Positions 1 to 52,380 of a stretch of DNA of 64,000 nt are shown here, piece by piece. Numbering within the stretch: the stretch's first letter is position 1; each line of letters begins with the position of its first letter. Position numbers and translations under genes: made by a program. Below the pieces are notes generated by a model. The model saw nothing but the letters and a program-made list of their open reading frames with translations, was not told the DNA's origin and did no database searches. The DNA is taken from contig OY253661.1 in NCBI GenBank assembly GCA_958009055.1, forward strand, positions 186,001-250,000. The letters run 5' to 3'. This DNA comes from Choricystis sp. odSpoLacu1 (taxonomy: Eukaryota; Chlorophyta; Trebouxiophyceae).

Positions 1-3000
1 GGCGGACGCTGGCCCTGGCGCTGACGGCCATCGCGCTGGCGACGCATGCCGCGGCGCAACCGTTCACCGTCAACGAGTCGACTGAGGAGAGGTCCTACAT
101 TCCCATGTACCCGGTGGGGGGGGCCATTGTTAGCAACCAGGTGAGGGAGAGAGAGAGAGGGGAGAGGGGGTGGAGGGCAGTCACAGGCAATGCCCCCGCC
201 CAACCTAGCCACGCTCGCGTCCCCGCCCACCCACTCCCCACCCATACTCCACAGAACGTCCCCCTCGGCTACGGCTCCACCTTCATGAACAACGTCGCCT
301 CCGGCGCGTGGGCCGCCCCCCGCACCTCCATCACCGCGTCCCAGGACAACTTTTATGAATCGTGCCCCTCCCAAGCGCTTCGCCTCGCCCTCCCGGGCGG
401 CCCCTGCGCCGACGCCATTCCCGCCATCAAACCCTTTTCAGCGGGCATGGTGACGGCTGAGTGCAGGGTCGTGGCCATGGCCATGAGGGCGCAGCCCGCC
501 CCCTTCCCCCCAAAGTGTTGCCCTCTGCTGCGCCAGTTTATTGGTGACGGGTGCGCGTGCGAGTCGGCCACCCTCTTTGTGTCCCCGATTGGTAATGTGA
601 GCGCGGTCGACCTGGTGGCCGCCACACGCGCTGCCCAGGTGTCGTTCTGCGCGAGCGACGAGTATGGGGGGCCGATGCACAACCCGTGCCGCAACATCAA
701 GAGTTGCGAGACGTATGCACAGCTGGGCCAGAAGACGCCCGCCAAACCTGTGGCGCCGGCTGCGACGGCTACTGCTGCTCCCGTGGTCAAGCCGGCGGCG
801 GTTACACCGGGGCCCTTGGCGGCGCCGGTGGGGGGCGCCAAGTCCGCGCCCACGGCCGCCGGCGCGGGCGGGCAGCCTGCGCCGAGCGCGGGCACCACCG
901 CTGTCCAGCCGGCCCCGCCCGCGCCTCCGGCGGGCGTGAGTGGGGTGGGGCTCGGCGTCAGTCGGGCAGCGGTCGTGCCGTCACCAACGGTGGCGAGAGC
1001 TGCGACCGCGCCGCTGTCGACGGCAGCCGTCAAGCCTGCCGACGAGCCGGCTGCGCCTGCAAGCAAAGTGGCGGCCGCGCCTGCTGTTGGCGCTGTCACC
1101 AAGATGGTTGCCAAGGCGCCGGCTGCTACGTTGAGTGCGGCGCCGGCGCCCGTGCCGGCCGCTGCCGTCGCCGCGCCCACGCCCGGCCCTGGCGACGGCG
1201 ACCGCCCGTCCATCCAGGCGGCGGCAGATGACGCTGTTATTAAAACGACAGCACCGCCCCACCACGCCAAACCCGCGCCGCCGCGGCACGGGCGCCGCCT
1301 GGCGGCGCGCCCGCCCCACCCTCGTCACGGCGACGATGCCGCGCCGGCGGGCGACACACCACCGGCCCAGGAAGCTGCCGTGGATGAGCCTGCCAAGCTG
1401 GAGGCGGGCGCGCCGGCGCCAGCCCCGGCGGCGCACCCATTCGAGCGGCTGGGCGCGCAGCCGCTGCCGACGCCTGCGGCGACAGTCGAGGCGGTTGCGG
1501 CGGTTGCCGCGGTGGATGCGCCCGCCACCCCCAACAACGTGTTTGGCGACATTGTAGACCCCACCATTCCGGTGAAGCCGGCAGCGTCGGCGGCGCCGGT
1601 GGCGGCAACGGCTGCCACCCCCAACAACGTTTTCGGCGGAATTGTCGACCCGACGATTCCCGTCAAACCAGCCGCCCAGGCGGCACCGGTCGCGGCGGTG
1701 GCTGGGGGTGCCACCCCCAACAATGTGTTTGGGGGCATTGTCGACCCGACGATTCCCGTCAAGCCGGCAGCATCGGCCGCGCCAGACGTGGGCGCTCAAC
1801 CAAACGTGTTTGGTGGGATTGTCGATCCAACTATTCCCGTCCAACCGGCTGCTCAACATGCTGCAGCGACTGCAGCGACAGGAACACAACCAAACAATGT
1901 GTTTGGCGGCATTGTGGACCCCACCATCCCTGTTAAACCGGCTGGTTTTGTGCAGCCTGCGACTGCTGCCACCACCACCACCCCCAACAACGTGTTTGGT
2001 GGGATCGTCGACCCCACCATCCCCGTCAAAACCGAAGCCCAACCTGCGTCGGGGTCTGGCGCCACTCCCAACAACGTGTTTGGCGGGATTGTGGATCCGA
2101 CAGTGCCGACGTCCAAACCGGCCGCGACAGTGGCTGCGCCCGTGGACGGCGCGCCTGCCGCGCCCTCTCTGCAGCGTCCTGCGCCCGCTGTGGTGGCTGG
2201 TGGTGCTGCCCTCGCCCGCCCTGCGCCCTCGTCCCCGGCGCGGCACGCGACCGATCGCCAGGGCGTCACCGCGGGCAGTGTCGGCGGCGGCGTGGCAGAC
2301 GCGGCGGCCGCGGTCGCGGTGGCTCCGCCCCCCAGCAAGGGCGCTGTCAAGGCGTTTGCCGAGCCGCGGGCTGCTGCCGCGGCACCTGGCTCTGCCAAGG
2401 CGCCGGCTCTGGCTGCCGCGGTGCGCGGTGGTGCCGCGGCACCCGCGTCTGCCCTCGCCCGCGCGCCAGCCCTGGCCGCCAAAGCAAAGGCTGCTGCCTC
2501 CCCGGCCGGCTCCAAGCTGGGCGCGGTCGCCGCGCCCAAACCTGCCGGCGCGGCCGCAGCACACGATGCCGAAGAAGACGCTGCCGCCGCCGCCCCTGGC
2601 CCCTTCCCCAACGGCCCCAGGTTCATGCAGAAAAAGTACATCGTGGAACCCGGGGCGGGCGGCGTCCCCAAGCGTAGCCCGTGGTACGACTTTTCGGAGG
2701 GCGAGCGTGCCAAGCACGCCGCTTTTGAGAACAAGACGGCCCAACCCTGGCTCTCCATCCCGCCCGGCCCCTGGACCGGCAAGTCCAACTTCAAGGCCCT
2801 GTCCATCGGCCCCCGCATGACGACCATGGCCAAGTTTGGGTCGGCTGTTGTGAATGCCGCCCTGCGCACGCGCAAGTGGTCGACACGGTGGGAGACGGTG
2901 GACGAGGAGGCGGTGCGCAAGGCCAAGGAAGCGTGCGACAAGGTGAACCGGGCTGCCAAAAAGAATGAGAAGGTGGACTGCGTGGCCATGGTGGCGGAGA

Positions 3001-3380
3001 TGACGGCGGGCGGGGTGGAGGGGCCGGCAGTGGCGCCGGGGGCGGCCGCAGCCGCACCCCCGCCACCTTTACCTGTCGGCTCGGGCATCCCTGTCGGCGC
3101 GGTGGGTGGCCCCCGCCCCGTGGGTCAGGTGGGGTCGGCCCAGCCTGTTGGCTCGGTGGCGGGCCCCAACCCCGTTCCCTCGGCGCGCCGCGATGCGCCA
3201 CCGACCGCGGTTGGCGCGGTAGGGCCTGGCCCGCTCGCCCCCGCACTCACCACCGCCCCAGGCGCTGGCCAGCCCGCGCCCACGGTGGGCCGCCCCGCAG
3301 GAGCGGTCGCGGGCGGGGTGCTGCCTCAACCCGCGCCGAGCGTCGGCCGGTCGGCGGGCGACGCGGCCGCGGGGCGGTGA
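1..3380 (+). CDS. Secreted Cys-domain, Pro/Ala-rich repeat protein, member 1 (5' end outside window)
   Basis: The frame is open at the left edge and begins inside a signal-peptide-like hydrophobic stretch (LALALTAIALATHAAAQ). I read one intron at 141-254; it is a multiple of three without stops, but removing it joins the part that matches the homologue at 43541-46061. Exon 2 (255-3380) encodes a domain with ten cysteines (about nt 258-720), then long Ala/Pro-rich sequence, seven repeats of the type NNVFGGIVDPTIPVKPA (nt 1526-2115), a more ordinary charged block (nt 2620-3000, KYIVEPG to VDCVAMV), and a tail with PAPSVG-like motifs. At least 1087 residues. Such composition is typical of hydroxyproline-rich extracellular matrix or wall glycoproteins, so an extracellular structural role is an inference; I recognise no named family. 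Stop codon TGA. Confidence 0.75.
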   Translation, partial: RTLALALTAIALATHAAAQPFTVNESTEERSYIPMYPVGGAIVSNQVRERERGERGWRAVTGNAPAQPSHARVPAHPLPTHTPQNVPLGYGSTFMNNVASGAWAAPRTSITASQDNFYESCPSQALRLALPGGPCADAIPAIKPFSAGMVTAECRVVAMAMRAQPAPFPPKCCPLLRQFIGDGCACESATLFVSPIGNVSAVDLVAATRAAQVSFCASDEYGGPMHNPCRNIKSCETYAQLGQKTPAKPVAPAATATAAPVVKPAAVTPGPLAAPVGGAKSAPTAAGAGGQPAPSAGTTAVQPAPPAPPAGVSGVGLGVSRAAVVPSPTVARAATAPLSTAAVKPADEPAAPASKVAAAPAVGAVTKMVAKAPAATLSAAPAPVPAAAVAAPTPGPGDGDRPSIQAAADDAVIKTTAPPHHAKPAPPRHGRRLAARPPHPRHGDDAAPAGDTPPAQEAAVDEPAKLEAGAPAPAPAAHPFERLGAQPLPTPAATVEAVAAVAAVDAPATPNNVFGDIVDPTIPVKPAASAAPVAATAATPNNVFGGIVDPTIPVKPAAQAAPVAAVAGGATPNNVFGGIVDPTIPVKPAASAAPDVGAQPNVFGGIVDPTIPVQPAAQHAAATAATGTQPNNVFGGIVDPTIPVKPAGFVQPATAATTTTPNNVFGGIVDPTIPVKTEAQPASGSGATPNNVFGGIVDPTVPTSKPAATVAAPVDGAPAAPSLQRPAPAVVAGGAALARPAPSSPARHATDRQGVTAGSVGGGVADAAAAVAVAPPPSKGAVKAFAEPRAAAAAPGSAKAPALAAAVRGGAAAPASALARAPALAAKAKAAASPAGSKLGAVAAPKPAGAAAAHDAEEDAAAAAPGPFPNGPRFMQKKYIVEPGAGGVPKRSPWYDFSEGERAKHAAFENKTAQPWLSIPPGPWTGKSNFKALSIGPRMTTMAKFGSAVVNAALRTRKWSTRWETVDEEAVRKAKEACDKVNRAAKKNEKVDCVAMVAEMTAGGVEGPAVAPGAAAAAPPPPLPVGSGIPVGAVGGPRPVGQVGSAQPVGSVAGPNPVPSARRDAPPTAVGAVGPGPLAPALTTAPGAGQPAPTVGRPAGAVAGGVLPQPAPSVGRSAGDAAAGR
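1526..2115 (+). repeat. Seven protein-coding repeats, consensus NNVFGGIVDPTIPVKPA
   Basis: Seven imperfect copies inside the first gene, separated by Ala-rich spacers of variable length. The core VFGGIVDPTIPV is almost invariant (FGDI in copy 1, TVPT in copy 7, one N missing in copy 4), while synonymous codons differ between copies. This suggests selection on the peptide rather than a very recent DNA duplication. Confidence 0.9.
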
Positions 3381-3567: not shown

Positions 3568-4389
3568 TCACTCTTTGCTCGTGATCACAAACAGTCCCAG
3601 CACCCCTATCAACGCATACTTGACGGCGGGGTAGTCGTTCATGATGATGGTGACGCGACCGACGTGGGGCAGGAAGCCGACGACGCGCCCCATCAGGTGG
3701 GAGCCGTCGAGCCACCTCTGCCCCCTGTTGTACAGCGCCCGGTCGTCGCCCCAGTTGTTGTCGCCCTTGGTGAGCAACTGCAGGCCTGTGTCGCCGCCAT
3801 CGTGCACTTTGATGGCTCGGTGCACGATGGGGATGTCGCGCCCGCCGAGCGAGAAGACGACGACGTCGCCTGCGGCCACCGGGTGGGACTGCGAGTGGGT
3901 GAGGAACAGGATGTCGCCCCGGTAGAAGCCGGGCTCCATGGAGCCTGAAAGGACGACGACGACCTGTTTTGGAGGTGTGGGGTGGAGGGTGGGGGGTGGG
4001 GGTGTGCGGGGGATAAAAAGGAGCGGCGTGTGTCCTCCGCCACTCTCTCTCTGCTCTCCCACCCACCGGCGACTCGGATCCAATGGCAATGACCAAGAAC
4101 TTCCAGATCATCAGGGCGGAGGTGACGATGAGGCCTGTTTGGAGAGTTGTGTGTTTTGGGAGGGAGGGATCAGCGATTGGCAATGGCCTCTGCGCCGCTC
4201 CACCAACCGCCTCGATCCACCCCCACTCGCCACTCTCCAACACTCACCCAGGTTCACGCCCTGCATCAGCGCGTGCTTGAACCCCTGCTTGGTCAACACT
4301 TCGGCGCCGAACAGGGCCTCCGCACCCTTGCGCAGCGCGCGTGCGGGGGCGGACGCGCGGCGGGGCGGGGGGCGGGCTGCTGGGGCCAT
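3568..4389 (-). CDS. SEC11: Signal peptidase complex catalytic subunit SEC11 (peptidase S26B)
   Basis: Removes signal peptides from proteins entering the ER, as the catalytic subunit of the membrane signal peptidase complex. Three exons: 4389-4248, 4134-4067, 3963-3568, giving 201 residues, close to the usual eukaryotic size. Seen: an N-terminal membrane anchor (LIVTSALMIWKFLVIAIG), the catalytic Ser motif VVVLSGSMEPGF, the eukaryotic catalytic His in IVHRAIKV where bacteria have Lys, the Asp-containing motif LLTKGDNNWGDDR, and a second hydrophobic segment near the C-terminus. The first exon carries a basic, Pro-rich leader. The start is set by the only upstream Met in frame with a clean GTGAG donor. 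Divergent from the caleosin gene, with about 150 bp between starts. Confidence 0.93.
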
Positions 4390-43540: not shown

Positions 43541-46061
43541 TCACCCCAAATCAGCCACCACCAGCTGCCCACCCGCCTTGGGCTTGGGCAACGCATCCCC
43601 TGGCTTGGGCAGGCGTGCTGGCCGCGGGTTTTCAGGCTTGACCGCTGCTTTTGCCTCGGCCATCGCTTCCGGCGAGTCGCTCGCCGCCTGCAGCGACGCC
43701 AGCGCGTCCGCCGCGCCCGGAGGGGGAGCTTCCGTCTCCTGTGGCACGGCAGCAGCTGCTCCTGCGTCGCGTGGCGGCGCCGCGTTGGGCGCCGGCTTGA
43801 CCGCGCCGACCGAGGGGGCGGGGCGGGCGGGGCCCTTGGGGGGGGCGGGCTTGACGACAGCCGACGGAGGAGGAGGCGACGGGGTGGCCGCATCCTCGAC
43901 GGGCGGGGCCGCCACGTCCGCCGTGGGCGGGGGCGCGCCCGGCGGGGGAGCGGCAGCCGCCTTGGCGGCGGGCTTGGGAGCAGCGGCAGCGAGGGAGACC
44001 GAGACCGCGGGCGCGCCGCTCGCGCCCCCCACCACCGCCGGCGTCGCCAGCGGCACCGCGGCCGCCGCCACCGCCACCCCCGCCCCCGCGGTCGGGGCGG
44101 GGTGGGCACCGGTGCTGGGCTTTGCTGCGGCAGCGGCCGCCACCGGCTGCGCGGCCGCCGTCGCCGCGGTACCCACAGACGGCGCGGGCTGGGCGCCCAC
44201 CTGGCGCACAACACCCCCCGCCGCCGCCGTGCCCACAGCAGGCGGTTTGACAGGCGTGGCAGCCCCAGTTTTGGGGGGCGGGGGTGGCGTGTTCAGGCCG
44301 TACTGCACCATCGCCCCCCACGTGCCGCAGTTCTTGATGTTGACGCACGTCGACCGGATGGGCCCCCCAAACGTGGCGTTGGCGCAAGACGTCAACTGCC
44401 CCGCCCGCGTGGCCGCGATCAACAGGTTGGCCTGGATGCCGACAATGCTGGAGACGGCGAGCGTGTTGGCGTCGCACGCGCAACCGCTTTCGATGTACAA
44501 CCGCAGGTCGGGGCAGCACATCGGCGTGATGCTGGATTCAGCCGACTTGGCGGCCGTCGTCACGATGCGGCATTCAGCAGTCGCCACCCCCTCCGCAAAC
44601 TCTTTCAACGGGATGAGGGAGGGGGCGCACGGCCCCCACAACATGCGCAGCGCTTGGGACGCGCACGAATAGTAGATCTGGTTCTCACTGGACGTGATGA
44701 CCGACCGCTTGCCCGCCGCAATGCGCACAGTCTGAGGCATGCCGGTGCGCGGGTTGGACTCCACGGCATCGATGTTGGGGCCGCCCGTGTTGGAGAGGAA
44801 GGAGGAGCCTGAGGCGAGGGGGACGGAGTGGTCCCCCACCTTGGACGCAAACGAGGTCATCGAGTACGTGGGGGGCGCGTTGGATTGTTGGTAGGACGTC
44901 TGCGACCCCACATACGAGGAGAAGGGTTTGTAGGGCCAGTTGAAGGCGTCGTTGTAGGGGAGGGGCTGGTCGCGCGACCCGGCGGGTGCGGGCGCGCCCG
45001 GCGGCGGTGGCGGCGGGCGTGTCGGGCCCGCTGGCGCGGTGGTCAGCGGGGTGCCGCCCGGCGGGGCGGGTGCGCGTGGTGTGACGCCACCGCTGCCGGT
45101 GGAGGGGGCGGGCTGGGCGCCGGGCTTGGCTCCGACTGACGGCGCGGGCTGGGCGCCGGGCTTGGCTCCGACTGACGGCGCGGGCTGGGCGCCGGGCTTG
45201 GCTCCGACTGACGGCGCGGGCTGGGCGGTGGTCGTGGTGGCCGCGCCACCGCCCACCGATGGCGCCGGCTTGGCGCCTCCCCCCACCGACGGAGCCGGCT
45301 TGGCGCCACCCCCGGCAGCAGCGGCAGGCGCAGCCGCGTCCGCGGTCAACGGTTCAGCAAAGCCCTTGGGAGTGGCGGTGCCGCCCGCCGCCGCCGCGAC
45401 CGACGGCGCGGGGCGCGCGCCGGTCGGGGCTGCGGGCAGGGCACCGCCCGCCACTGAGGGTGCAGGCTGGGCGGTGGCGCCGACCGAGGGGGCGGGCTGG
45501 GCGCCGCCGCCGCCCACGGAGGGGGCCGGCTTGGCGCCACCCACCGAGGGCGCGGGCTGGGCGCCACCGCCACCGACCGACGGCGCGGGCTGGGGCTGCG
45601 CGCCGCCCGGCCCAGCCGCCGCCGCCGGCTTCACGCCGCCCGCCGCCGCCACGCCAGCACTGCTGGGCGGCGTCAGCGGCGTCTCCTCCCCGCTGCCCGC
45701 GGGCGGGGGCGGGGGCGCGGGGGCAAAGGGCCACCCGTTGACATGGTTTTGGACGCCCGCACTCGGGTACACGCGCGCCCCCACGGGGAAGGGGGGGCGG
45801 GCCAGGCCGTCCGCGGGATTGGGGCGGGGCTGCAGGTAGTGCGGCTCCTTTTTGGGGGGTTTGTAGGGGGGGACATCGCCGTGCGCGGCGCGCGCTCCGG
45901 GCGGCGCGGGCGGCGCGGGCGGCGGGGGGGGGGATGGGGCCGCCCCCGCCCGCTTTGTCGGCGGTTTGCAGTCCACGCCGCGGGTTGGACGTGTCAATGG
46001 CGTTGTCTGCTGTTGCCAGGGCGGCGGCTGCCAGCAGCAGCAGGAGCGCGGCGCGGCGCAT
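43541..46061 (-). CDS. Secreted Cys-domain, Pro/Ala-rich repeat protein, member 2; one frameshift
   Basis: About 839 residues. Begins with a clear signal peptide (MRRAALLLLLAAAALATADNA), then Pro-rich sequence with KPPKKEPHYLQPRPNP, about 18 PAPSVG-type repeats, the region NWPYKPFSSYVGSQTSY, and the ten-cysteine domain (nt about 44300-44690) also found in the first gene: YYSCASQALR, AECRIV, MCCPDLRLYIESGCACD, IAATRAG, CVNIKNC. A Pro/Ala-rich tail follows. The signal peptide and body are in different frames; the change falls in a run of ten C on the minus strand (45925-45934), and nine C would join them. Probably extracellular matrix or wall; no known family. Stop TGA. Confidence 0.75.
45085..45620 (-). 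repeat. PAPSVG peptide repeats
   Basis: About 17-18 copies of AQPAPSVG, AKPAPSVG or ARPAPSV with short Gly/Ala spacers, inside the second Cys-domain gene. Three neighbouring copies at 45108-45218 are almost identical at DNA level (unit GGCTTGGCTCCGACTGACGG on the plus strand), which shows recent tandem growth. PAP and SP motifs of this type are often O-glycosylated in algae and plants. Confidence 0.85.
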
Positions 46062-46469
46062 GGTGTTGCCTAGGCGTGGGAATGCGGCGTGTCGCGGTCG
46101 CAGCGCGGGCGAGCGCACACAGTGTTTTCAGTCAACGCCCAGCTGCACGATCAGTCGACAACCCAGAGCAGGGTGTGGGAGGGTCGGCGCGTGGCAGAGG
46201 CAGGGCCGCAGAGCGGTGGGACGTGTTATGGCGGGGGGGGGGGGGGGGAGCACCCGCCAATGCGACTTGCGCTGTGAGTCTCTCGCGCGCGCGTTCGAGA
46301 AACGAGTGTGCAGCCTCTGCACTGGGGCACTCTCTCGCGCGCGCCACAGGGGTGTGTGGGGCGGGCGAAGAGGTCAGAAGAGGGGGAAAGGCAAAGAGAG
46401 TTTGGGCTTCTCCCCACAAACCACAGCGTTTTTTGCAACTCTTCTCCCCACCACTCTTCTTCTCTGCGT
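46062..46469. other. Intergenic with a G16 tract
   Basis: 408 bp between the start of the second Cys-domain gene and the acyltransferase stop. Contains a run of 16 G at 46233-46248. No gene supported. Confidence 0.6.
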
Positions 46470-47141
46470 CTACTCGTCCTTGTCCCGCCGCCGCCGCGCC
46501 GCCTCTCTCAAATCAGCAAACCCGTCCGCATCCACGACACCCCGCGGGGCGACGATGGTCGCCCCATCCGCCTCCACACGCACCCCCGCCCGCAGCAGCG
46601 CCGCAAACTCTTCATACCCCTGGTCCACCACGGGCACGCCCAGCGTGTCCGCAAACATGCGCCTCACATTGGCGGCGTAGAGGGACGGGTCGGCTTTCTC
46701 GGCGTCGGAGGGAGTGTAGGGCGGCAGCACACGTACAGTGATTTTTTTGCGAAACTGGCACAAGCACCGCACAAAGTGGGCGCCCTCGGTCACAATGGTC
46801 CAGGCGGGGTTGAAGTGCGCGGATTCATACTGCAGCACGACGGGCAGCACGGGGGCGCCCGGGACAAAGGCGCCGGAGCGAAAGCGCAGCATGCAGCGCC
46901 CGTCGCCGCACGTGCCTTCGGGTGCGACCACCACCATCGGCCACCGCGGGTCCGCCACCCGGGCCGAGATGGCGGCCGCCACGCCGCGCGACTTGGAGCC
47001 ACCCCGGGAGTCGCGCTGGATGTAGATATTCTGAAAGGACTTGATGCACTGACCGATGATGGGGATGTGTGCGTTCTCCGCGCGGGAGACGCCAGACGCG
47101 GCGAGGAGCCACATGATGAGGGGGGCGTCTGGGAGTGTGTG

Positions 47142-47223
<82 letters not shown>

Positions 47224-47856
47224 TGTTGGCTTGTGTGGGAGGGAGGTGCGTTTTCCCTCTCTTGCGTGTGCCGTTTTCCTCCCTAACCCACCTGCCCACG
47301 CCACATGGTTGAACACGGCCACCGCGCGCTGGGCCTTGGCTTCCTTGATGTGTTTCCACCCTTCCACCCTGATGGAAAAGCCCAGGCACCAGAGAACGAC
47401 GCCCGCGAGTTTGGAGCCCGCAACGGCAAGAGCGCGCCTGTGCGGAGGCAGCGGCTCGTCCAGCGGCCACCCCGCCGCCGCGATCGCGGACACGACCGCC
47501 AGCACGGCGCAGGCGGAAAGAGCGGCCACGCAGCGCGGGATGACGAGGGGGGCCAGGACGGCGAGTTTGAAGAGCTCCCTGTGGGTGGGGGTTGGAGAGG
47601 GAGCGGAGCGTTGACCGGCGCAGGTCGAAAGATGTGCCGAGGTGAGCGGGCACCCGCGCCCCGACCGCGCTCCCCGCGCGCGCGCCTCCCGCCGCCTCTC
47701 CTCCTGCCCGTCTCTCTGTGCTGAGCACGGGGCGGTGCGGCTCGCCAACCGCTGCAGTGTTTCAACCACCCATCAAACGCACCACCACGTCACCGGCGTC
47801 GACGTGTCCAGAAAGGGGGACGCGCGCGTGTCGTAGCGGGCGAGGCGGTCGGTCAT
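46470..47856 (-). CDS. Lysophospholipid acyltransferase (LPEAT/LPCAT, PlsC family)
   Basis: Reacylates lysophosphatidyl-ethanolamine or -choline at the ER. Exons 47856-47783, 47578-47292, 47128-46470; 339 residues. The first junction uses a GTGCGT donor and gives TPVTWWELFKLAVLAPL. Seen: two N-terminal hydrophobic segments, the catalytic HX4D built across the second junction (FNHVAWADAPL), IYIQRDSRGGSK, the EGT motif VVVAPEGTCGDGRCMLRFRS with GAFVPGAPVLPVV. The second intron carries a long GT repeat. The two acyltransferase motifs match the plant LPEAT1/animal LPCAT type; EF-hands of LPEAT2/LPCAT1 are absent. Divergent from GLDH (192 bp). Stop TAG. Confidence 0.9.
47142..47226 (+). repeat. 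GT/AC microsatellite inside an intron
   Basis: About 40 GT units with two small interruptions, within intron 2 of the acyltransferase gene. Open frames through it (Cys-Val and His-Thr runs) are artefacts. Confidence 0.95.
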
Positions 47857-49988: not shown

Positions 49989-50048
49989 GAGTGTGTGTGT
50001 GATCCAAGCACCACAAACAACACAGAAAATTCACTGCCACAAAACACC

Positions 50049-52380
50049 CTACTCTGCGTCCTCCACCAGCGCCAGCGCGATCTCGGCGGCTTCACCACGC
50101 CGCGCGACGAGCGACGCGCGGATGGAGCGCCCTGCCACCGCAGCCGCGAGCGCGCTCCTGGCTGCCGGCGTCGCCGCCACAAAATCCAGAGCACTGACCC
50201 CCAGCAACGCTTCCGCGGCGTCCCCCACCGCAAAGGCGGGGATGCGAGTGGCGGTGGAGGCGTCATCAGTGCTGCTGCTCTCCACCAAGCACACGCGCGC
50301 CGACAGCGCCAGCGCGGTGCGCGCGCGCGAGCAGTCGACACCACACGCGACGCACGCCCACAGGGGGCCATCCTCCACCGTGGCGGGCGGGGGTGGGGGC
50401 GGCGTGGCGGCGGTGGAGGTGGGATGGCACGCCGCGTGGCCGCCGTCGACGACGATGATGGCTGAAGCGCCCGCGTCGGTTTGAGTGAGCGGGGGAAGTG
50501 CCGCAGCTGCCGCACAACCCCCATCCTCCCCAAAGTCCAGCTCAGCGGGGGCCAGCGGGCGCCCACAGTCGGCGTGGGTGCGGTGGACGGCGACGGTGGC
50601 GCCGCACGCGGCCCGGGCTGAGACAACGCCGCCCGCGGCCGCAGCCGCTGCGAGCGGGGCGGCCGCGCCGGCCGCGGTGCGGGCGGACGCCAGCAACCCG
50701 GGAAGCCGGGGCAGGGACGCGACAGCGACTGAGGCCAGCGGGTCCAGCACCAGGCGGGCGGCGGGGTGGGGGGCAGTGTTGGGGCCGCCACCACCACTCC
50801 GCTCGACGCGCACACGCGCGCACGTCACCGCCACGCCGTCCCCCACCCTCACCGCCAGCGCGGACCGGGGCACGGCGCCGGGGGGGAGGCGCAGGGTGGC
50901 CACCGCGGATCCATCGTCCAGGGTGAGGGAGACGCCGCCGGACGCGTCGGCGGTGGCAGCGACGACGACACCCACCGCCGCGGCGCGCGCGGCGCGGCCG
51001 GGGGCCAGCCCCGCCAGCAGGGGGCGCGTGACCGCGGTGCCGGCGTTGGTGCAGGGGAGTGGGAGGGATGCTGATGAGGTGCCAGGAGGCGCGTTTTCGG
51101 TGTCGTCGGCATCATCAGACGCGTGCTCGACGACAACCACCACCTGCCCGCGCGCAGGCGTCAGCGCGGCGGGAGCGCCGCCGCGCGGCACCACCCGCAC
51201 CGCGCCAGGCAGCACGATGCCGTCGCCCGGGGCCAACAAGTCTGCCAGGGCGACGTCGCCATCCAGCAGGAGCAGGGGGGTGGGAGGGGTGCCGGCGGCG
51301 GCGCCGACGTCGGCGAGCCAGGCGACGCGCGCGGCGCCCGAGGCCGCCGCAGACGCGGCCACACTCCCCTCCGGCTCCACCCCGCCCACAGCCACGATGA
51401 CACCCGCCGCGGGAGCACCCTCGGGCGCGGCGCCAGCCGCCACCCGCGACGCGGTGAGTGTCACCGCCAGGCCGGGCGGCAGGTCGCGCCAGTGGGGGAC
51501 GACGGCGGCCGCGGCCGCGGCCCCGCACACGACGACGGGCCCTCCACCCCCCGCCGTGCGGCGCCACCCGCGCACCTTGGCCAGCCTCAGGGTGCGCGGA
51601 GGGGTGGCACCATCCCCCCACCCGCTCAGGGCGGCAGCCAGGCAGGAGGGGAGCAGGGCGTCGATGGTGCGGCCGGCGAGGGACGCGTCAGAGAGGGGGA
51701 GGGCGACGGACGAGACTGACGAGACCGCGTCGCCGCAGCCGCTGCCACCACCCACCGCCCCCGCCACGGTCGCCACCACCGCGTAGGATGCCCCCCCCCG
51801 TGCATCGGGCGCGCCCGCTGCCGCCAGGACGGAGGCGAGGGGGGTCCAGCGCAGCTCGGGGGTGGGCACGCCCTCGGGCGGCTGAGAGGGAGGGGTGGAA
51901 AAAAGGGTTGGAAAAAAAAAAACAATCACCGACTGCCCACACAACCACATCATCACACACAACCAAAGGCTCACCAACTGTTTCCAGTCGCCCCACAGCG
52001 CGGTCTTGAGGACGTGGTGCGGCAGGCCGTCTGTGTGGGGGGTGGGCGGATGAAGTCCAAGACCGTGCGATGTGTGACGTGCCCGGCCTTCTCACCCCCA
52101 CTCGCCCCGCCCACACGAACCATACACACTCTCTCTCACCTGCATGCTGCTGCAGCATCCTGACCACCCGGTCCGCCGTCCACGCCCACCCGGGCGCGGG
52201 CGCGCGCTTGGCGCCCCCCGCGCGCGCGGACGCGGCCGCGGACGCAGCCTCGGCGTCCAGGTAGGAGGCCAGGTCGTCCACTGCGGCCGCAAAGGCGGCC
52301 GCGGTGGGGCCGCCGGGGGGGAGCGGCATGTGGAAAGTGGAGAGGGGAGGCGTTTGAATTGTGGTCGAGCCGAGCGGCAT
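50049..52380 (-). CDS. OB-fold/zinc protein, possibly CTC1-, RPA1- or MEIOB-like
   Basis: Exons 52380-52140, 52030-51975, 51881-50049; 709 residues. Very Ala/Val/Gly-rich, but several stretches read as OB-fold strands, e.g. VVVAATADASGGVSLTLDDG then ALAVRVGDGVAVTCARVRV. Near the C-terminus CHPTS...WACVACGVDCSRARTAL could bind zinc, followed by LSARVCLVESSSTDD and VGDAAEALLGVSALDFV, the order seen in C-terminal OB-folds of RPA1-type ssDNA-binding proteins. The assignment is tentative; nothing fixes it to one family. Divergent from the MTA nucleosidase with only about 90 bp between starts. Stop TAG. Confidence 0.5.

Follow-up and report, generated by a model that had tools for sequence, protein, structure and literature searches.

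What is the ten-cysteine domain shared by two large Pro/Ala-rich proteins that lie some 40 kb apart in the genome of the alga Choricystis sp. odSpoLacu1? The question is raised by a 64-kb window (the whole stretch of DNA analyzed, positions 186,001 to 250,000 of contig OY253661.1; G000:C13:186001-250000), within which the first protein, P1, occupies the open frame 3-3380 (+) and the second, P2, the open frame 43541-46069 (-). Judged from its sequences, the family to which they belong is a real, expanded and secreted one, most likely a ten-cysteine offshoot of the algal lineage of non-specific lipid-transfer proteins (nsLTPs). Our best reading is that its module has been fused to stalks in P1, P2 and two further genes, L010 and L027, resembling the xylogen-type chimeras of land plants. 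For P1 and P2 themselves, we consider the case evenly balanced that an algal module of the lipid-transfer type, which has gained a disulphide, is mounted on Pro/Ala-rich stalks and binds lipids at the wall.

The cysteine intervals computed for the two domains (13-18-17-0-10-1-29-12-5 in P1 and 11-18-17-0-10-1-29-12-5 in P2) agree exactly with the spacing given in the initial annotation of this DNA. In a whole-genome search, the P2 domain matched P1 with 45% identity over 137 amino acids (E = 6e-34), and the two are therefore homologous beyond their cysteines. Indeed, 13 columns are invariant in all seven aligned family sequences (7/7), ten of them being the cysteines.

We searched the genome (14.6 Mb, 19 contigs) with P2, L009 (as P0003), L010, L005, L006, one orthologue of L018 and the Pfam family PF00234 as queries. 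At least 11 family loci were found: P1, P2, L005-L011, L018 and L027. These counts are lower bounds, and weak matches were left uncounted (C6:576678, E 0.65; C7:248256, E 0.016; C5:552042, C1:770429 and C4:783469, E 0.011 to 0.48). Ten cysteines are present in 10/11 loci, only L018 having eight; L006 has one more cysteine inside the domain, and in L011, with ten, the early intervals are shorter and the gene model is unsure. In seven of the nine loci outside the window (L006-L011 and L018), a short signal-peptide exon ending in a GTGAGT or GTGCGT donor is followed by an intron ahead of the domain, the exon joins of L006 and L011 being read by eye. In L006 the domain itself is interrupted by a second intron, and L005 is intronless. 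Signal peptides were recognized by eye in P1 and in 8/9 of the loci outside the window, that of L027 lying in another frame. The earlier proposal of a lineage-specific matrix, adhesion or lipid-binding family thus holds as far as a genuine domain family, signal peptides in other members and Pro/Ala-rich repeats in four genes are concerned.

Near the start of contig C9, four of the loci (L005, L006, L008 and L010) are packed into about 5 kb (G000:C9:7341-11654). L007 and L009 form a tandem pair on C1 (G000:C1:1484254-1485969), some 30 kb short of its end. L011 and L018 are also on C1, and L027 is on C2 (G000:C2:1128301-1131300). The stalkless and short members are found in tight clusters near contig ends, with P1 and P2 inside C13; the clusters look like local expansion near chromosome ends.

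The profile search that had been suggested as a check was productive. A seven-member profile run against 5.8 billion proteins found 20 proteins at E <= 1, environmental homologues included. Three of these (P0001, P0003 and P0006) carry, letter for letter, the exons that encode the domains of L008, L009 and L007. All ten domain cysteines are present in 11/20 proteins; in the other nine, the called protein is missing some of the domain. A later search, with L018 added to the profile, again returned 20 proteins, 11 of them new, and 10/11 of the new ones (P0025-P0034) are of the L018 type, with the third and tenth cysteines absent over the parts they hold. Since L018 was in the query, these matches are by themselves no proof of homology. 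The ten-cysteine query L009 (as P0003), however, finds L018 at E = 2.6e-6, and a direct comparison of the eight- and ten-cysteine subfamilies by hhalign gave P = 2.6e-12, with 0/40 permutations as good. By these sequence measures, the two subfamilies are clearly homologous. L018 itself (G000:C1:1012795-1013091, -) has 42 residues between its second and third cysteines and a Ser in its CxC; the eight-cysteine subfamily is strongly conserved among its homologues (GCSCNRLIL, SIPRLYQFSC, NGCSFSG) and may be the closest counterpart of the published algal nsLTPs.

Does the family as a whole belong with the lipid-transfer proteins? The domain had been described as unnamed, which is true of P1 and P2: their domains match no Pfam family at E <= 10, nor do P1 exon 2 and the whole of P2 at E <= 0.01. 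It is less true of their relatives, two of which just pass the curated cut-off (21.7 bits) of PF00234, the LTP/seed-storage/inhibitor family. L008/P0001 scores 22.0 bits, 22.6 when spliced and 23.4 from the genome, and the homologue P0002 scores 22.5; L010, at 16.9, falls below. A match to a named Pfam family, which was to have counted against the domain's novelty, thus exists for these siblings and not for P1 and P2. L008 is the sole PF00234 match in the genome, and there is none in 14 control genomes. In successive scans, 2/7, 2/10, 2/19, 2/6 and 0/10 proteins matched PF00234 at all. The best score against PF14368 (LTP_2) was 16.5 bits, below its cut-off of 22, with no match for P1 or P2.

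We then compared profiles with hhalign, using structure chains of our own choice and controls in which all non-cysteine columns were permuted while the cysteines were kept. For the ten-cysteine and the full family, respectively, 1/100 and 0/100 permutations did as well against three type 2 nsLTP chains, 3/100 and 0/100 against five type 1 chains, and 0/100 and 0/200 against all eight land-plant nsLTP chains (P = 6.8e-4 for the full family). The eight-cysteine subfamily behaved similarly with type 1 (0/100) and less clearly with type 2 (13/100). Because cysteine-keeping permutations fail to reach it (0/200), these profiles suggest a link to nsLTPs that is weak but non-random.

The same comparison bears on a second member of PF00234. 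The order C-C-C-CC-CxC-C-C-C is identical in the cereal alpha-amylase/trypsin inhibitors, and the intervals of 1b1u (13-8-14-0-9-1-27-17-10) can be set beside those of P1, so that the domain could be an inhibitor of digestive or wall enzymes, secreted against grazers or microbes. Similarity to four inhibitor chains was nevertheless at chance, with 33/100 (ten-cysteine), 32/100 (full family) and 41/60 (eight-cysteine) permutations as good. We consider this explanation highly improbable and reject membership of the cereal inhibitors, which share the cysteine order and no more residue similarity than chance gives.

Several results weigh against a lipid-transfer origin. The hhalign probability for the nsLTP link is at most 35% and rests on the short cysteine-rich core. 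The domain contains the nsLTP eight-cysteine order C-C-CC-CxC-C-C, but P1, P2 and 10/11 loci have ten cysteines. The comparison of predicted models with known folds, proposed as a check at the outset, came out negative: two AlphaFold2 models are helical (predicted local distance difference test scores of 73 and 76, predicted template modelling score 0.65), and neither gave an interpretable match in the PDB (Foldseek, VIA). A PDB sequence search with P0001 and profiles A1 and A2 likewise gave no match at E <= 10. As P1 and P2 have neither the eight cysteines nor a Pfam match, and as the fold is unproven, we do not claim nsLTP membership for them.

These points would suit a different explanation, in which an adhesion or matrix domain that is lineage-specific, helical and rich in disulphides, and unrelated to lipid-transfer proteins, has acquired its CC...CxC by convergence and holds wall proteins together rather than binding lipid. 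The lack of a structural match in the PDB, the lack of a Pfam match for P1 and P2 and the restriction of the nsLTP similarity to the core speak for it, and a role in the matrix would go well with the stalk-bearing forms and the tandem expansion. It would not account for the passage of L008/P0001 and P0002 over the PF00234 cut-off, for a residue similarity to nsLTPs above that of all cysteine-keeping permutations (0/200), or for an eight-cysteine subfamily with the canonical order of the eight-cysteine motif (8CM) within the same family. We regard convergence as a serious possibility, though a doubtful one. If the third and tenth cysteines are assumed to be the extras and omitted, the intervals become 11/13, 36, 10, 29 and 12; the stretch from the second cysteine to the CC pair then exceeds 30 and stays within 8-50, the range described for the algal lineage, as against 8-30 in land plants (PMC9832785). 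Setting lipid-transfer proteins aside on account of lengths and two additional cysteines, as was done initially, is less well supported, given the siblings in PF00234, the eight-cysteine subfamily and the occurrence of the same ten-cysteine order within PF00234, in the cereal inhibitors.

Outside the domain, Pro, Ala, Ser and Thr (PAST) make up 52-61% of P1 and P2, compared to 39.5-43.6% in three other open reading frames (ORFs) of the window. Dipeptides of the arabinogalactan (AG) type (AP/PA/SP/TP/GP/VP) occur 12.5-13.4 times per 100 residues in the stalks, vs. 3.5-5.9 in the same three ORFs, and [AST]P is clustered. GC content is high throughout (64-76% in 31/32 of the 2-kb stretches and 59% in one, with a mean of about 69% over the window), but the lower values of the three other ORFs indicate that the stalk composition exceeds what a GC-rich genome gives. 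The xylogen-like threshold of PAST > 35% is exceeded in P1 and P2, yet does not discriminate here, as the three ORFs exceed it too. The PAPSVG-type repeats first reported for both proteins are present in 11 copies in P2 and in only one in P1, which has a repeat of its own. Pro/Ala-rich parts also occur in L010 and L027. The genome has seven matches to PF13640, prolyl-hydroxylase-type oxygenase domains that are too general to prove hydroxylation of the stalk prolines; hydroxyproline is described from chlorophyte algae (PMC7612518).

A signal peptide and Pro-rich repeats, in an alga that has chlorophyll a/b proteins, are also what one would expect of pherophorin-like or extensin-like wall proteins, with a pherophorin domain as the cysteine-rich globe. 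In Pfam, however, P1 exon 2, P2 and their domains drew the blank described above. SPPP motifs number 0 in P1 and 1 in P2, and the domain is found without a stalk in sibling genes. Pherophorin membership is rejected for want of a Pfam match, and this explanation is very unlikely.

The features of the two genes are collected in Table 1. The spliced model of P1 encodes 1092 amino acids (106 kDa), with two further cysteines near the C-terminus, outside the ten-cysteine domain; the C-terminal block that holds them (2601-3014) has no Pfam match. P2 has a mass of 80.5 kDa. No hydrophobic C-terminal tail suggestive of a glycosylphosphatidylinositol (GPI) anchor was seen by eye in either. Signal peptides had been assigned to both starts; that of P1 stands, while that of P2 lies in another frame than its domain. 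No splice donor of three common types is present in the first 300 bases of P2, and the stretch contains a run of ten C; the frame change may therefore reflect either an indel introduced by assembly or an uncommon gene structure. It should be noted that L027 likewise has its signal peptide and Pro-rich part in one frame and its ten-cysteine domain in another. The occurrence of frame changes in two GC-rich stalk genes hints at assembly indels or unusual introns.

Table 1. Coordinates of the features of P1 and P2 within the window
Feature	Position	Strand	Remarks
P1 exon 1, signal peptide	1..140	+	start codon just upstream of window (ORF in L002); reads MRPTRRTLALALTAIALATHAAAQ...; judged by eye
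P1 intron (predicted)	141..254	+	donor GTGAGG and acceptor CACAG, from splice-site sequence; frame also open through intron
P1 exon 2: domain, Pro/Ala-rich stalk, C-terminal block	255..3380	+	open frame to stop
P1 ten-cysteine domain, first to tenth Cys	363..707	+	
P1 repeats NVFG[GD]IVDPT[IV]P, 7 copies	1524..2123	+	
P1 non-repetitive C-terminal block with two Cys	2601..3014	+	unique in genome
P2 gene, signal-peptide ATG (46061) to stop	43541..46061	-	ATG in other frame than domain
C10 run, in stretch where P2 frame changes	45924..45933	-	
P2 PAPSVG-type repeats, most of the protein's copies	45086..45607	-	
P2 block ahead of domain, common to P0021 and P0022	44666..44953	-	
P2 ten-cysteine domain, first to tenth Cys	44327..44665	-	AlphaFold2 model made of 44285-44707
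P2 Pro/Ala-rich C-terminal side	43541..44326	-	PAST 60.5% vs. 39.5-43.6% in three other window ORFs

P2 has long Pro/Ala-rich relatives in P0021-P0023, all of which keep the ten cysteines. Its domain shares 65/120 and 69/120 aligned residues with P0021 and P0022, respectively, and the 85 residues ahead of the domain are identical to theirs at 49/78 and 42/74 aligned positions. The remaining N- and C-terminal parts are 39-44% alike, much of this being shared composition. In a tree of 20 rows (P0023 left out), in which 10/17 inner branches are open, P1, P2, P0021 and P0022 form a clade (97/99), L010 groups with P0008 (95/88), whose called protein has no such stalk, and L027 forms a long branch that is placed with little certainty. 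This scatter of P1/P2, L010 and L027 suggests that stalks were probably gained or lost more than once.

We propose that P1 and P2 are chimeras secreted by an alga whose light-harvesting proteins are of the chlorophyll a/b type. Each would carry one helical, disulphide-clamped module of the 8CM type, distantly related to the nsLTPs of algae and land plants. The extra disulphide would link the C-terminal part with the long stretch that separates the second cysteine from the CC pair. Since Cys 3 and Cys 10 are absent together in one subfamily, Cys 3 may bridge to a C-terminal cysteine; the disulphide pairing of the cereal inhibitors would give Cys 3 to Cys 8. The stalks, probably hydroxylated and O-glycosylated, would keep the protein within the wall or the surface matrix, where the module may bind a hydrophobic ligand, e.g. 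lipids of the wall or the precursors from which a resistant wall polymer is made. As for the host, the genome has 26 matches to PF00504, the chlorophyll a/b light-harvesting proteins. For one of these, the best 60 of 336 PDB matches are all chlorophyll a/b-type light-harvesting chains, a comparison that shows the plastid type rather than the exact lineage because some of the top chains are long multi-domain light-harvesting complex I proteins. Given how compact its genome is, the host would most probably be a chlorophyte.

Elsewhere in the window, a class 3 lipase (PF01764; 5468-7402, -) and a phospholipase B (PF04916; 30477-32399, -) both lie between P1 and P2. A signal-peptidase-like ORF (3568-4107, -) lies directly downstream of P1 on the opposite strand, its Peptidase_S24/S26 matches falling slightly short of the Pfam cut-offs. 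At 47135-47226 the dinucleotide GT is repeated 46 times, and the AT skew at 50001-52000 (0.324) is far above that of the other 2-kb stretches. Rfam and tRNA scans of the window found nothing.

Lipid-transfer proteins and their chimeric glycoprotein forms have been connected with the lipids of the wall and with life on land. It is a tentative and somewhat unlikely proposition that chlorophyll a/b algae outside the land plants evolved giant xylogen-like chimeras, in which a ten-cysteine lipid-transfer module is joined to stalks of the hydroxyproline type, or inherited them from before the land-plant split. If they were inherited, the chimeric state would be old, extending the proposal of a chimeric beginning for G-type nsLTPs (PMC12209756). 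If they evolved separately, the chimera would have arisen more than once, which the scattered tree positions of P1/P2, L010 and L027 would fit. Should the domain prove to bind lipids, the genome, which is compact and has eight- and ten-cysteine members in free and stalk-mounted forms, would lend itself to the study of such origins and of a wall role in single cells. Among the papers covered, few of them subscription papers, we found none on ten-cysteine lipid-transfer proteins of algae or on a chlorophyte nsLTP combined with arabinogalactan.

How does the family compare with known systems? The cereal inhibitors (PDB 1b1u, 1bea, 1hss) share the ten-cysteine order, but differ in the lengths of the second, eighth and ninth gaps and have no stalk. 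Hybrid proline-rich proteins consist of a Pro-rich N-terminal part and a C-terminal 8CM. L027, with its signal peptide, Pro/Ala-rich part and C-terminal cysteine domain, is similarly built, but has ten cysteines and frame changes; the likeness is one of architecture.

Among the nearest counterparts are the group AI nsLTPs, from a 2023 survey that reports 29 nsLTPs in 13 green algae (PMC9832785). As described there, group AI has P or S inside its CxC and a lengthened, D- and Q-rich C2-C3 region, and its Chlamydomonas member binds C20-C24 fatty acids. Compared by published description only, CrLTP1/CrLTP2 and our family are alike in being secreted, in the order C-C-CC-CxC-C-C, in neighboring gene copies and in having introns, as well as in the extended C2-C3 region (42 residues in L018, 36 in P2) and the CxC residue, Ser in L018 and Pro in L009. 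They differ in that 10/11 loci here have two more cysteines, most members have Ala or Gly inside CxC, and the introns mostly precede the domain. On sequence grounds, L018 fits the published description of the AI group. P1 and P2 would pass the widened motif of that survey, as it is described, and fail its 60-kDa limit, above which proteins were discarded.

For the chimeric forms, the comparison is with the xylogen-like proteins, whose lipid-transfer-like domains were stated in 2025 to occur only in land plants (PMC12209756). The pattern given for rice clade C, C-X9-C-X14-CC-X12-C-L/V-C-X25/27-C-X9/10-C (PMC4239379, PMC12209756), is close to the ten-cysteine domain except between C2 and CC. P1 and P2 differ in their ten cysteines, the lack of an LTP_2 match, far longer stalks and another host lineage, and also in having no GPI-type tail by eye, compared to a GPI-anchor signal reported for 20/21 rice members (PMC4239379). 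They have in common a signal peptide, an 8CM-type module and, on one or both sides of it, PAST-rich regions containing AG-type dipeptides. Without a claim to membership, the architecture of P1 and P2 would thus resemble, in the way it works, that of a xylogen-like chimera.

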